In this document: positions 45,891-49,130 of the stretch, one piece after another
How the letters are laid out: each line of letters opens with the position of its first letter
Position numbering within the stretch: the first letter of the stretch is position 1
Origin: Paraflavitalea sp. CAU 1676
Lineage (GTDB): Bacteria > Bacteroidota > Bacteroidia > Chitinophagales > Chitinophagaceae
DNA length: 64,000 nucleotides
NCBI RefSeq assembly: GCF_029223285.1
Contig: NZ_JARHUJ010000001.1
Location: forward strand, 62,001-126,000
Direction of reading: 5' to 3'
Position numbers and translations under genes: made by a program
The notes under the pieces: generated by a model
The model's database searches: none
The model's input: the letters and a program-made list of their open reading frames with translations, nothing else
Told to the model about the DNA's origin: nothing

Positions 45891-46898
45891 TTACAACAGG
45901 TTTTTGGAAACCAGGTATTCTGCGATCTGAACGGCATTGGTAGCGGCACCTTTACGCAGGTTGTCGCTCACCACCCACATGTTGAGGGTATTGGCCTGTG
46001 TTTCATCACGGCGCAGACGGCCAACGAATACCTCATCACGATCGTGTGCATCTTTCGGCATGGGGTATTGCTGGGTGGCGGGATCATCTACCACAACAAC
46101 ACCGGGCGACTGGCTCAACAGGGTGCTTACTTCATCCAGCTTGTAATCATCGGCAAACTCCACATTCACGCTTTCACTGTGTCCGCCTACTACGGGGATA
46201 CGTACGGTGGTAGCAGTAACACGGATGCTGTCATCGCGCATGATCTTCTTGGTCTCATTGACCATCTTCATTTCCTCTTTGGTGTAACCATTGTCGAGGA
46301 ATACATCGATCTGTGGGATCACGTTGAGATCAATGGGATATTTGTAGGCCATTGGGTATTCGTTGTTGGACCCTTTTTCCGCTTTCGAGCGTTCACCGAA
46401 CATCTGATCAACGGCTTTCTTACCGGTGCCGGTTACGCTTTGGTAGGTAGATACTACGATACGTTTAATCTTATATTTCTTGTGCAGCGGGTTGAGCGCT
46501 ACAACCATTTGAATGGTAGAACAGTTGGGGTTGGCAATGATCTTATCGTCTTTACCCAGTGCATCGGCATTCACCTCGGGCACGATGAGTTTTTTGGAAG
46601 GATCCATTCTCCAGGCGGAGGAGTTGTCGATCACGGTGATACCTGCTTCTGCAAATTTGGGAGCCCACTCCAGGGAAGTACTGCCGCCAGCGGAGAAGAT
46701 CGCCACGGCGGGTTTAGCTGCAATAGCGTCGGTCATGCTCACGATCTTGAATCGCTTACCCTTGAATTCGACTTCCTTGCCCACTGATCTTTCAGATGCT
46801 ACTGGAATGAGTTCTGTAACGGGGAAATTGCGCTCGGCTAATACCTGCAACATTTTGGTGCCTACAAGGCCGGTGGCGCCTACTACTGCAACTTTCAT
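45891..46898 (-). CDS. asd: Aspartate-semialdehyde dehydrogenase
   Basis: A 335-residue enzyme that reduces aspartyl phosphate to aspartate semialdehyde, the branch point to lysine/diaminopimelate, threonine and methionine. It has the NADP-binding VAVVGATGLVG start, the catalytic Cys126 in NPNCST, the QSVTGTGKKAV block and the active-site His in RIPVVGGHSESV. The ATG at 46898 is the family start; the longer open frame to 47012 runs through a terminator. Upstream on the same strand are a promoter, a 20-codon leader ORF and a terminator with a possible antiterminator, so asd appears to be controlled by attenuation. No second promoter is apparent between that terminator and the gene. Confidence 0.95.
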   Translation of the reverse strand: MKVAVVGATGLVGTKMLQVLAERNFPVTELIPVASERSVGKEVEFKGKRFKIVSMTDAIAAKPAVAIFSAGGSTSLEWAPKFAEAGITVIDNSSAWRMDPSKKLIVPEVNADALGKDDKIIANPNCSTIQMVVALNPLHKKYKIKRIVVSTYQSVTGTGKKAVDQMFGERSKAEKGSNNEYPMAYKYPIDLNVIPQIDVFLDNGYTKEEMKMVNETKKIMRDDSIRVTATTVRIPVVGGHSESVNVEFADDYKLDEVSTLLSQSPGVVVVDDPATQQYPMPKDAHDRDEVFVGRLRRDETQANTLNMWVVSDNLRKGAATNAVQIAEYLVSKNLL

Positions 46899-46964
46899 GG
46901 TGTGTTGATTGGCTTGTTTATAGTTTATGAATAATGACTTTTTCGCTCGCTGACTGATGAAAGC

Positions 46965-46996
46965 AAAACGGCCTTCCTGGTGGGGAAGGCCGTTTT
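46965..46996 (-). terminator. Leader terminator (attenuator) upstream of asd
   Basis: AAAACGGCCTTCC and GGAAGGCCGTTTT form a perfect 13-bp stem with a 6-nt loop. On the minus strand the stem ends in TTTT, and it lies 66 bp before the asd ATG and 26 bp after the leader-ORF stop. Bases 46983-46990 (RNA GCCUUCCC, mostly in its 5' arm) are fully complementary to RNA GGGAAGGC at 47026-47033, the last codons of the leader ORF, so an alternative antiterminator can form. Confidence 0.75.
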
Positions 46997-47022
46997 GAAT
47001 ATCGTAGCACACAAAGCAGTAC

Positions 47023-47085
47023 TTAGCCTTCCCAATGTCTGGATTGCTTCTTCGTGCGCTTTGTATGTTTCATCATTTTTTGCAT
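47023..47085 (-). CDS. Candidate leader peptide of the asd attenuator (20 aa)
   Basis: A 20-codon ORF begins 9 bp after a promoter -7 element and ends with TAA. The peptide begins MQKMMKHTKR and goes on TKKQSRHWEG: Met at 1, 4, 5; Lys at 3, 6, 9, 12, 13; Thr at 8, 11, so half of it is Met, Lys or Thr, the products of the aspartate pathway. Stalling at these codons would leave codons 18-20 free to pair with the terminator arm and let RNA polymerase reach asd; smooth translation to the stop would cover them and allow termination. A second pairing is possible between codons 7-10 (CATACAAAGC, 47058-47067) and GCTTTGTGTG after the stop (47008-47017), 10 bp with one G-U. Translation is not proven. 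Confidence 0.6.
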   Translation of the reverse strand: MQKMMKHTKRTKKQSRHWEG

Positions 47086-47094
47086 AACGAGCAG

Positions 47095-47126
47095 CAAAAG
47101 TAGTCCCCAAATACAGAATCCGCAAA
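47095..47126 (-). promoter_or_regulatory. Promoter TTTG-N20-TACTTTTG of the asd leader
   Basis: On the minus strand TTTG (47126-47123), exactly 20 bp, then TACTTTTG (47102-47095) match the Bacteroidota consensus. The start of transcription is expected near 47088-47090, a few bases before the leader ATG at 47085. Confidence 0.75.
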
Positions 47127-47417
47127 TATTTTATTAAAAAAGAGAAAATACTTTCTGCCGGCCGGCGCCATTACAATGGGTATCAAAGTGTTCAAAGTGA
47201 AGGATAAACCGGATGACATAGGCATTGGTCGCCTGGTCGGCGATAGGCCTGCCGGCCACGCCAAAGGCACGGCGGGCAATGCTTCATGTGCTGATGAGTG
47301 CGCTAAAACAGCTCACGCAAGTATTATAAATTATTTTATTATTTGTTGACGGCTACTTATTTTCATACTACCAGGCGGTTTCGGATAACCGTCATATCCT
47401 CATGAAAAACATAACCA

Positions 47418-49130
47418 ATGACTATACGACTGCTTGCTGCATTGTTATTGCTGCCTGCTTCCTTATTGCATGCCCAGCCCGCTCAACGATTCGCGATCCT
47501 CATTACTGAATTGATGCCGGACCCTTCGCCGCCTGTTGGTCTACCCGCTCAGGAGTATATCGAGCTGAAGAATGTTTCTCAACGACCAGTCAACCTGCTG
47601 GGATGGAAGCTCAGTGACGGAGCCTCCACAGCCAACATCAACGTTGCCTTTATATTGGAGCCCGATAGCCAGGTGGTCATCTGCAGCCATTCGGCCGCCT
47701 CCATGTTGAGTGCTTTTGGTTCCTGTATCGGGGTCAGCAATTTTCCCTCCCTGAACAACGATGCGGATGTTATAACGCTTTATTCTCCGGAAGGTGCTAC
47801 CATTCACGCGGTGGCCTATAGCGACCAATGGTACCAGAACAGCGTTAAGATCAATGGTGGCTGGAGTTTGGAGATGATCGATGCGGCCAATCCCTGCACG
47901 GCTGCCGCCAACTGGAAGGCTTCCACACATCCTGGCGGAGGTACACCCGGCAAGGATAATTCCGTAAAAGGCATCAATGCCGACGATATGCCGCCAACCG
48001 TTGTAAGTACCTACGCACCAGATAGCCTTACCTTGCTGGTGCTGTTTAATGAATCGCTCGATAGCCTGCAGGCTGCTATACCCGCTTATTACGCTCTCGA
48101 CCAGGGTATGGGGCATCCTCTCTATGCCGAACCTCAGCCTCCCCTTTTCCGGAACGTATTGCTTACCTGGGGAAGTCAGCTAAGTACAAGTGTGTCGATG
48201 CTCACCGTAAGGAACATTACCGATTGCAGCGGTAACCCTATAGGAGCAGGTAATACTGCGAAAGCGGCTTTGGCACAACCCGCCAGCCCCGGAGACCTGG
48301 TCATTAATGAATTGTTATTTAACCCGCCTGGCGGAGGGGTGGATTACATTGAGTTGTACAATCGCAGTAACAAAGCGATAGACCTTAAACAATTGTATGT
48401 AGCCAATCGTTTGTCCACCGGCAAGTTTACGAACATACACCAATTGACGTCTAATTCAAACCTGCTGTTCCCGGGCGACTACCGGGTACTGACAGAAGAC
48501 GGCCAATGGGTGCAACAGCAATATATAGGGGCCATGCACGAGGCGCTATTGCAAATGGAGGCGTTGCCTTCGCTGCCCGATGATCAGGGCCACCTGGTAT
48601 TGATGGACGCACAGGAGGTGGTGATCGACGAATTGCAGTATAATAAAAGCTGGCATTTTGCTTTGCTGGGCAGCGATGAAGGGGTAGCGTTGGAACGAAT
48701 AGATTATAGCCAGTCTGCCCAAAACAGCCAGAACTGGATGTCGGCCGCCTCCACGGCGGGGTTTGGTACACCGGGCTATCGCAATTCGCAGTTCAGGGCC
48801 GATCTGCAGGCGAAGGGAATGATACGGCTTACGCCCACCCTCTTCTCGCCCGATCATGATGGCAGGGACGACTTTGTAAGTATCCAGTATCAAATGGCGG
48901 AAGCTGGCTTTGTGGCCAATATCACCTTCTTTGATGCAGCAGGTGCACCAGTAAGGCACCTGGCGCGCAACGCCACGCTGGGCATGGAGGGAACTTTCAG
49001 GTGGGATGGGTTGGATAATGAAAGGCGCCGGTTACCACCGGGCAATTATATCATGTATGCGGAATTGTTTAACGGACAAGGGAGAACAAAAAAGTTCAGG
49101 AATACTGTAACATTAATACGTCACCTATAA
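47418..49130 (+). CDS. Secreted protein with two lamin-tail domains
   Basis: A 570-residue exported protein (signal peptide about 1-19). It holds one lamin-tail domain at about 25-165 (LITELMPDPSPPVGLPAQEYIELKN-like start), a short Ig-like segment (about 190-280), a second lamin-tail domain at about 290-440 (LVINELLFNPPGGGVDYIELYN) and a FlgD-like Ig domain at the C-terminus (FSPDHDGRDDFVSIQY, WDGLDNERRRLPPGNYIMY). Such modules are common in large Bacteroidota surface proteins, where they probably support adhesion or anchor enzymes. No catalytic motif is visible, and there is no typical T9SS sorting tail. Confidence 0.8.
   Translation: MTIRLLAALLLLPASLLHAQPAQRFAILITELMPDPSPPVGLPAQEYIELKNVSQRPVNLLGWKLSDGASTANINVAFILEPDSQVVICSHSAASMLSAFGSCIGVSNFPSLNNDADVITLYSPEGATIHAVAYSDQWYQNSVKINGGWSLEMIDAANPCTAAANWKASTHPGGGTPGKDNSVKGINADDMPPTVVSTYAPDSLTLLVLFNESLDSLQAAIPAYYALDQGMGHPLYAEPQPPLFRNVLLTWGSQLSTSVSMLTVRNITDCSGNPIGAGNTAKAALAQPASPGDLVINELLFNPPGGGVDYIELYNRSNKAIDLKQLYVANRLSTGKFTNIHQLTSNSNLLFPGDYRVLTEDGQWVQQQYIGAMHEALLQMEALPSLPDDQGHLVLMDAQEVVIDELQYNKSWHFALLGSDEGVALERIDYSQSAQNSQNWMSAASTAGFGTPGYRNSQFRADLQAKGMIRLTPTLFSPDHDGRDDFVSIQYQMAEAGFVANITFFDAAGAPVRHLARNATLGMEGTFRWDGLDNERRRLPPGNYIMYAELFNGQGRTKKFRNTVTLIRHL

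Follow-up and report, generated by a model that had tools for sequence, protein, structure and literature searches.

Attenuators of the trp type combine a short open reading frame (ORF) rich in codons for the end product of the pathway, mutually exclusive antiterminator and terminator structures, and a terminator that precedes the structural gene. The L box (the lysine riboswitch, RF00168) resembles the leader described here in controlling lysine genes via the leader RNA, as would be the case for asd; however, L box RNA binds lysine itself. The abstract of Vitreschak 2004 is said to name some cases from Bacteroidetes/Chlorobi, lysine not being among them.

Ribosome-mediated attenuators of proteobacterial trp, his, thr, ilv, and leu operons are described in the accessible part of one report (PMC1183508). 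Another source assigns lysine to control by the L box and His, Thr, and Phe to control by attenuators (PMC1262725). As in this source, RNA-level control of lysine synthesis in bacteria is usually ascribed to the lysine riboswitch, to which the asd leader would add a peptide-based sensor. In the available portion of a further article (PMC2965389), neither the word lysine nor any word beginning with Bacteroid- occurs. Within the Bacteroidota, strong clues of leader peptide attenuation before amino acid biosynthesis operons were reported for Flavobacterium psychrophilum (PMC9723704), and small ORFs resembling leader peptides were noted in 5′ UTRs of Bacteroides thetaiotaomicron (PMC7366714); the asd leader shares the phylum with these cases, and no leader for lysine, asd, or dapA is mentioned in the accessible parts of either report. 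In Sinorhizobium meliloti, the small ORF SEP5, comprising six Thr and three Lys codons, is located in the 5′ UTR of a so-called aspartate dehydrogenase gene and was regarded as a possible leader peptide (PMC10117765). SEP5 differs from the asd leader in its phylum and in containing mainly Thr codons, and the available text gives no alternative structures for it. Searches of an open-access library revealed no lysine-specific leader peptide attenuator, which agrees with the initial annotation of the locus, to which no described attenuator for asd in Bacteroidota was known.

Anatomy of the asd Leader

The window, i.e., the whole stretch of DNA analyzed in this study, comprises 64,000 nucleotides from Paraflavitalea sp. 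CAU 1676, a member of the Chitinophagaceae. The anatomy of the region in front of asd was established by reading the minus strand and is given below (stop codons are omitted from peptides here and in the following):

47126-47123, minus strand: −33 element TTTG, read from the sequence
47102-47095, minus strand: −7 element TACTTTTG of the TAnnTTTG type, 20 nt after the TTTG and 9 nt before the ATG
47085-47023, minus strand: leader ORF MQKMMKHTKRTKKQSRHWEG, nearly leaderless, with the Lys core KHTKRTKK conserved in 91 aligned leaders
47067-47058, minus strand: segment 1, CATACAAAGC, spanning codon H7 through the first base of R10 and pairing with segment 3
47033-47026, minus strand: segment 2, GGGAAGGC, 5′ arm of the putative antiterminator within the last ORF codons, partner of segment 4
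47017-47008, minus strand: segment 3, GCTTTGTGTG, located 3′ of the stop codon and pairing with segment 1
46997-46964, minus strand: terminator hairpin with the loop CCACCA, then an interrupted U-tract (from sequence and fold)
46990-46983, minus strand: segment 4, GCCTTCCC, 3′ arm of the putative antiterminator, overlapping the 5′ arm of the terminator, partner of segments 2 and 5
46977-46965, minus strand: segment 5, the 3′ arm of the terminator, GGAAGGCCGTTTT, partner of segment 4
46898-45891, minus strand: asd, aspartate-semialdehyde dehydrogenase, 335 aa, above the cut-offs of NCBIfam NF011456 and TIGR01296

Based on sequence comparison and folding models, we consider it probable (roughly 0.8) that this leader is a transcription attenuator of the ribosome-mediated type and responds mainly to how much charged lysine tRNA is available. 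Like the proteobacterial attenuators, it possesses an ORF with end-product codons, exclusive folds, and a terminator before the gene. Unlike them, it would sense mainly lysine, and it has a promoter of the Bacteroidota type and a nearly leaderless ORF. Another difference concerns the topology, since the hairpin 1:3 crosses the helix 2:4, whose 5′ arm it encloses in its loop, whereas in trp a strand is shared instead. The novelty would thus lie in the lysine specificity, the crossed 1:3/2:4 topology, and the occurrence in a phylum with little-described leaders; the working mode would be that of classical attenuators.

The promoter, the 20-codon ORF, the 13-bp stem, and the two alternative pairings reported by the initial annotation were all recovered upon re-reading of the minus strand. 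Its coordinates for the leader held as well; only the start of asd had to be corrected from 46899 to 46898. Ten codons of the ORF encode Met, Lys, or Thr (the start Met included), and five of the 20 encode Lys. In the window leader, segments 1 and 3 form 10 bp including one G-U pair, and segment 2 (GGGAAGGC) is fully complementary to segment 4 (GCCTTCCC). The terminator stem AAAACGGCCTTCC (46996-46984)/GGAAGGCCGTTTT (46977-46965) consists of 13 perfect pairs, and the predicted fold extends it by C46997-G46964 to 14 pairs. As the neighbor on the far side of the leader is a long divergent ORF (47418-49130, plus strand), there is no upstream gene on the same strand that the hairpin could terminate.

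The motif TAnnTT[TC]G is present at most 45 nt upstream of the leader ORF in 88 of 99 leaders, compared with 71 of 1980 control windows, and 80 of the 88 leaders having this −7 motif carry TTTG, TTG, or TTTT at the −33 place. The 3,227-base region of the window leader (L001) contains TAnnTTTG once, at the asd leader promoter, at a chance expectation of 1.83. Hence, the stretch from the terminator to asd is free of this motif in the window, as had been stated initially; among the relatives, such a motif was found there in one of 99 family leaders (L026).

The leader as a whole folds with a minimum free energy of −49.9, the mean of shuffled sequences being −29.6 (z −5.15; none of 200 shuffles as low). 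Its conservation in the family (see below) is a much stronger argument against a chance arrangement. An intrinsic terminator hairpin between leader ORF and asd is present in the window and in the relatives, and at least six T within 12 nt around the stem end were counted in 94 of 99 family leaders. A simple terminator scan of the window reported none at the asd leader, where the U-tract is interrupted (GTTTTGCTTTC). RNAalifold, applied to the alignment of leaders (A1), found the terminator as sole structure, seven of its eight consensus pairs changing on both sides in some sequence. A local hairpin within segment 3 is weak (mean z −0.52). In many A1 leaders, ACATAA directly follows segment 3 and might pair with the UAUGU of that segment, giving a small hairpin that competes with 1:3; this is not evident in the window.

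Conservation and Distribution

asd was detected in 191 of 194 Chitinophagaceae genomes and in one further genome of the genus. Upstream regions were read for 111 of these 192, taken from the better-matching rows (31 loci of the initial matches and 80 fetched later), and the leader is present in 104 of them, 99 found by script and five by eye, the 81 remaining asd-bearing genomes including the most divergent ones. It is absent in seven of the regions read (L092, L101, L104, L106, L109, L112, and L113). The alignment of Chitinophagaceae asd upstream regions that the initial annotation had proposed thus reveals a conserved ORF with its Lys codons and both pairings; neither the loss of ORF and antiterminator among relatives nor the separate asd start downstream of the terminator, either of which was thought to speak against attenuation, is suggested by the regions read.

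A covariance model, R1, which was built from 91 family leaders, matched in 84 of 117 family genomes, with the asd leader identified by coordinates in 79 and no R1 match in 33; this sample is less biased toward close asd genes than the 111 regions, and many of its leaders were used to train R1. Outside the family, R1 yielded 30 matches in the class. Twenty of these were read and comprised 10 asd Lys leaders, one hisG leader, two Thr/Ile leaders, and seven plain terminators. The 10 asd leaders, e.g., MKMILKNKKHGKKRFHSGKVN and MMIKKIKCAKKLFR, each come from a different genome, represent four further families of the class, and contain four to seven Lys each; eight are free of Thr and nine contain internal Met. 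With these four families and the 79 genomes of its own, the element provides a ready test of translation-coupled attenuation in Bacteroidota. The asd leader also offers a test of crossed-helix switching and of the weighing of several end products of a branched pathway in one leader.

In other families of the order, no asd leader was seen in 20 asd upstream regions from 12 families, and a search of plasmid records with the asd leader gave no match. Among named or MAG records in which asd had been found by protein, 24 of 78 loci carry the leader as judged from the best candidate of the script (80 loci, two of which had too little upstream DNA; some records repeat genomes already sampled). The leader-bearing named records include Niastella yeongjuensis, Sediminibacterium roseum, and Limnovirga soli; at the listed loci of Pedobacter, Mucilaginibacter, Sphingobacterium, Dyadobacter, Hymenobacter, and Flavobacterium it was not seen.

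Matched Change in the Alternative Pairings

For 91 leaders, the duplex energies of the segments in their native combination were compared with the energies obtained after swapping segments between species, with 300 permutations that ignore phylogeny. This approach was chosen because the register of segment 3 shifts between the rows of A1. For 1:3, the own combination was better in 83 of 91 leaders, and the total was reached in none of the permutations (z −14.7), the reversed and shuffled controls giving z −1.5 and +0.4, respectively. For 2:4, the own combination was better in 67 of 91 leaders and the total was again not reached (0/300; z −9.8). The reversed 2:4 control was not reached in 300 permutations either, albeit with a weaker signal (z −3.9), so that part of the 2:4 signal is due to composition. 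No excess was observed in the same test for the cross pairs 1:4 and 2:3 (z −1.0 and +2.2). Compensatory changes in 2:4 include GGGAGG/CCTCCC (L047 and L088) and GGAAAGG/CCTTTCC (L031 and L033). Both the antiterminator pairing and the second pairing of codons 7-10 with the segment after the stop codon, as initially described, are therefore better matched within than across species.

Proposed Mechanism and Position of the Ribosome

According to the proposed mechanism, the RNA would start a few bases 5′ of the leader ORF, which would then be translated. With ample lysine, the ribosome would reach the stop codon and cover segment 2, leading to formation of the terminator 4:5 and to actual termination. 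If lysine is scarce, it would stall on the Lys codons of KHTKRTKK and cover segment 1, so that the 1:3 hairpin would not form. In this stalled state, segment 2 would remain accessible to segment 4, the two would pair, and the polymerase would continue into asd.

The effect of the ribosome was modeled by mask folding, in which the leader up to the terminator loop was folded with a ribosome footprint at each codon (88 of 91 leaders usable; codons are numbered from the first Lys of KK as 0). About eight 2:4 pairs are expected (family mean) as long as the A site is at one of the codons −7 to +1, and this number falls downstream to 7.2 at +2, 4.3 at +3, and 0.6 at +4, where 1:3 takes over from 2:4, and to 0.01 at the stop codon. 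In all 88 leaders, a stall on KK favors 2:4 in comparison with a ribosome at the stop codon. The upstream edge of this stall window is soft, the family mean being 5.9 pairs at −11 and 5.99 without a ribosome. The window leader behaves more sharply, with 8.8 pairs at K6, T8, K9, T11, K12, and K13, 3.2-3.3 at Met4 and Met5, and 2.35 without a ribosome. Three footprint sizes gave the same shape of the profile, the edge shifting by approximately one codon. In the folding model, a stall at the sensor codons thus selects the antiterminator and arrival at the stop codon the terminator. Together with the conservation of the pairings, this argues for the initially suggested relief of termination by ribosome stalling.

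Sensed Amino Acids and Alternative Explanations

Lys occupies the core codons −6, −3, 0, and +1 in 72, 85, 79, and 86 of 91 leaders, respectively. Thr is found at −4 in 72 and at −1 in 51 of them, with Ile at the latter position in 22. The 1577 non-start residues consist of 25.4% Lys, 12.6% Thr, and 4.7% Met. With full-length starts, 57 of 91 family leaders contain internal Met; it is present at −9, −8, and −7 in 17, 17, and 27 of 88 and fixed at no codon, but is more frequent immediately ahead of the core (61 of 264 codons from −9 to −7) than within it (8 of 880 from −6 to +3). In an alignment of 12 chosen leader peptides, no residue is invariant except the first Lys of KK. As Lys is kept in the 10 asd leaders outside the family and Thr is missing in eight of them, Lys appears to be the common signal. 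Sequence comparison hence strongly supports lysine and moderately supports threonine as a signal, and Thr and Met may join Lys at asd. Of the joint Lys/Thr/Met sensing assumed initially, the lysine part is well borne out and the threonine part moderately so. The methionine part is backed by its frequency and position before the core and weakened by its presence in at most 27 of 88 leaders per codon and by the low number of pairs at Met4 and Met5.

At codon 0 (A1 columns 43-45; 47052-47050 in the window), AAG is used in 78 of 79 Lys cases, and the next codon is AAA in 66 of 86. Since codon 0 is nearly always AAG, the conservation of Lys there does not all reflect synonymous freedom. Codons −5 to −2 lie within segment 1, and their conservation therefore partly results from pairing.

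The dapA gene of the same genome is preceded by a second copy of the leader, which is 71% identical and encodes the peptide MQLIKKHTKQSKKRSGKREG. A dispersed repeat was considered and rejected, as the 227-base leader matches only this one other site in its own genome. The dapA leader was found in seven other genomes, and in six of the best 30 dapA loci scanned (93 genomes with dapA). At −1, none of the eight dapA leaders has Thr (S, V, or C instead); in the five genomes with both leaders in register (G000, G003, G006, G096, and G032), this position is Thr at asd and S or V at dapA.

This difference bears on the question whether the asd leader reads several end products to which Asd contributes, namely lysine, threonine, and perhaps also methionine, with any stall relieving termination, and the dapA leader only lysine. 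Such joint sensing is a serious candidate to which we nevertheless give slightly less than even odds. In its favor, the Thr codons −4 and −1 lie inside the modeled stall window, Met is enriched before the core, and leaders of dapA, a lysine-only gene, lack Thr at −1 where their asd counterparts have it. However, 22 of 91 leaders have Ile at −1, Thr at −4 sits in the paired segment 1, most asd leaders outside the family contain no Thr, Met is fixed nowhere, Met4 and Met5 of the window leader reach 3.2-3.3 pairs against 8.8, and the thrA-type gene of the genus has a Thr-rich leader ORF of its own (see below). A different view of the structure is that 1:3 and 2:4 together form an H-type pseudoknot that acts as antiterminator and is broken once segment 2 is occupied by a ribosome that has reached the stop codon. 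The helices do cross, both are conserved, and the connecting stretches of 24, 8, and 17 nt should permit both; yet in the folding model, 1:3 is lost and 2:4 persists when the ribosome sits on the core codons, so that the on state does not require 1:3 there, and we consider the pseudoknot unlikely.

Stalling of a polybasic chain through its own sequence, possibly in response to another ligand, would account for core residues that are conserved in register and for the preference for AAG at codon 0. Such an arrest peptide is nonetheless very improbable: in 80 of 88 leaders, the chain ahead of codon −6 is just four or five residues long, which is short for arrest, Lys is what stays common outside the family, and the hisG and thrA-type leaders described below are rich in their cognate amino acid. 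The strong hairpin between promoter and asd could also be a constitutive terminator, or yield a terminated RNA acting in trans, without any sensing of amino acids; as this leaves the conserved ORF, the two matched pairings, and the positions of the Lys codons unexplained, we give it even slightly less credence than the arrest peptide. A riboswitch or T-box was rejected because Rfam has no match at the locus: in Rfam 15, no lysine aptamer reached the gathering score in the window or E ≤ 1 in 46850-47180, and no T-box matched in either range (the T-box model being assumed to be part of the library).

Related Leaders Before Other Genes

Within its own genome, R1 gave 12 matches at E ≤ 1. Of the 10 besides asd and dapA, six weak ones were read and discarded as resembling plain terminators. 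The 20 non-asd family matches besides the own dapA, all of which were read, comprise 12 leaders of biosynthetic genes and eight plain terminators. Upstream of lysC and lysA of the genus, a Lys leader was not recognized. Lys-bearing leaders with hairpins were seen in one genome each before lysA (MSLITSIKTIKTKKPYLYG, L132), an aminotransferase-like gene (MTRKLHKSKKHLPNR, L136), and an aspartokinase gene (MQIKKHNKMMKCITRR, L137); the product of the L136 gene is below the NCBIfam cut-offs. It is plausible, at somewhat less than even odds, that Chitinophagaceae and some other Bacteroidota possess a lysine regulon of asd, dapA, and in some species lysA, aspartokinase, and the aminotransferase-like gene, in which lysine-signaled crossed-helix attenuators replace the lysine riboswitch. 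The asd leader would add Thr and Met codons that dapA lacks, and the regulon would be a branch of a wider set including hisG and thrA-type leaders.

His-rich leaders before hisG appeared as weak R1 matches (L131 and L140). The own hisG gene (L314, G000:C19:242770-243615) has the leader MNIFTHIHHHHHTYPSR with the promoter motif and a GC-rich hairpin. The script found the hisG leader in four of five loci of the genus, the fifth having its gene start placed elsewhere. The own thrA-type gene (L171, before base 1500; an aspartokinase frame of 836 codons) is preceded by the Thr/Ile-rich ORF VVLQQHHIISSSSAVASTATTTTTITTTR, which starts with GTG after TATATTTG. A similar Thr-rich ORF precedes this gene in all five genomes of the genus; as a clear terminator was not recognized in the thrA-type leader, it may be subject to another kind of control. 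The His-rich hisG and Thr-rich thrA-type leaders make a reading of cognate codons natural. In another family, L194 and L201 carry the Thr/Ile leaders MYNSTIIITIIITTGRNLAEE and MTINNTIITTIITTGIKDGGR, respectively, before aspartokinase-type genes, together with a CCTTCC hairpin.
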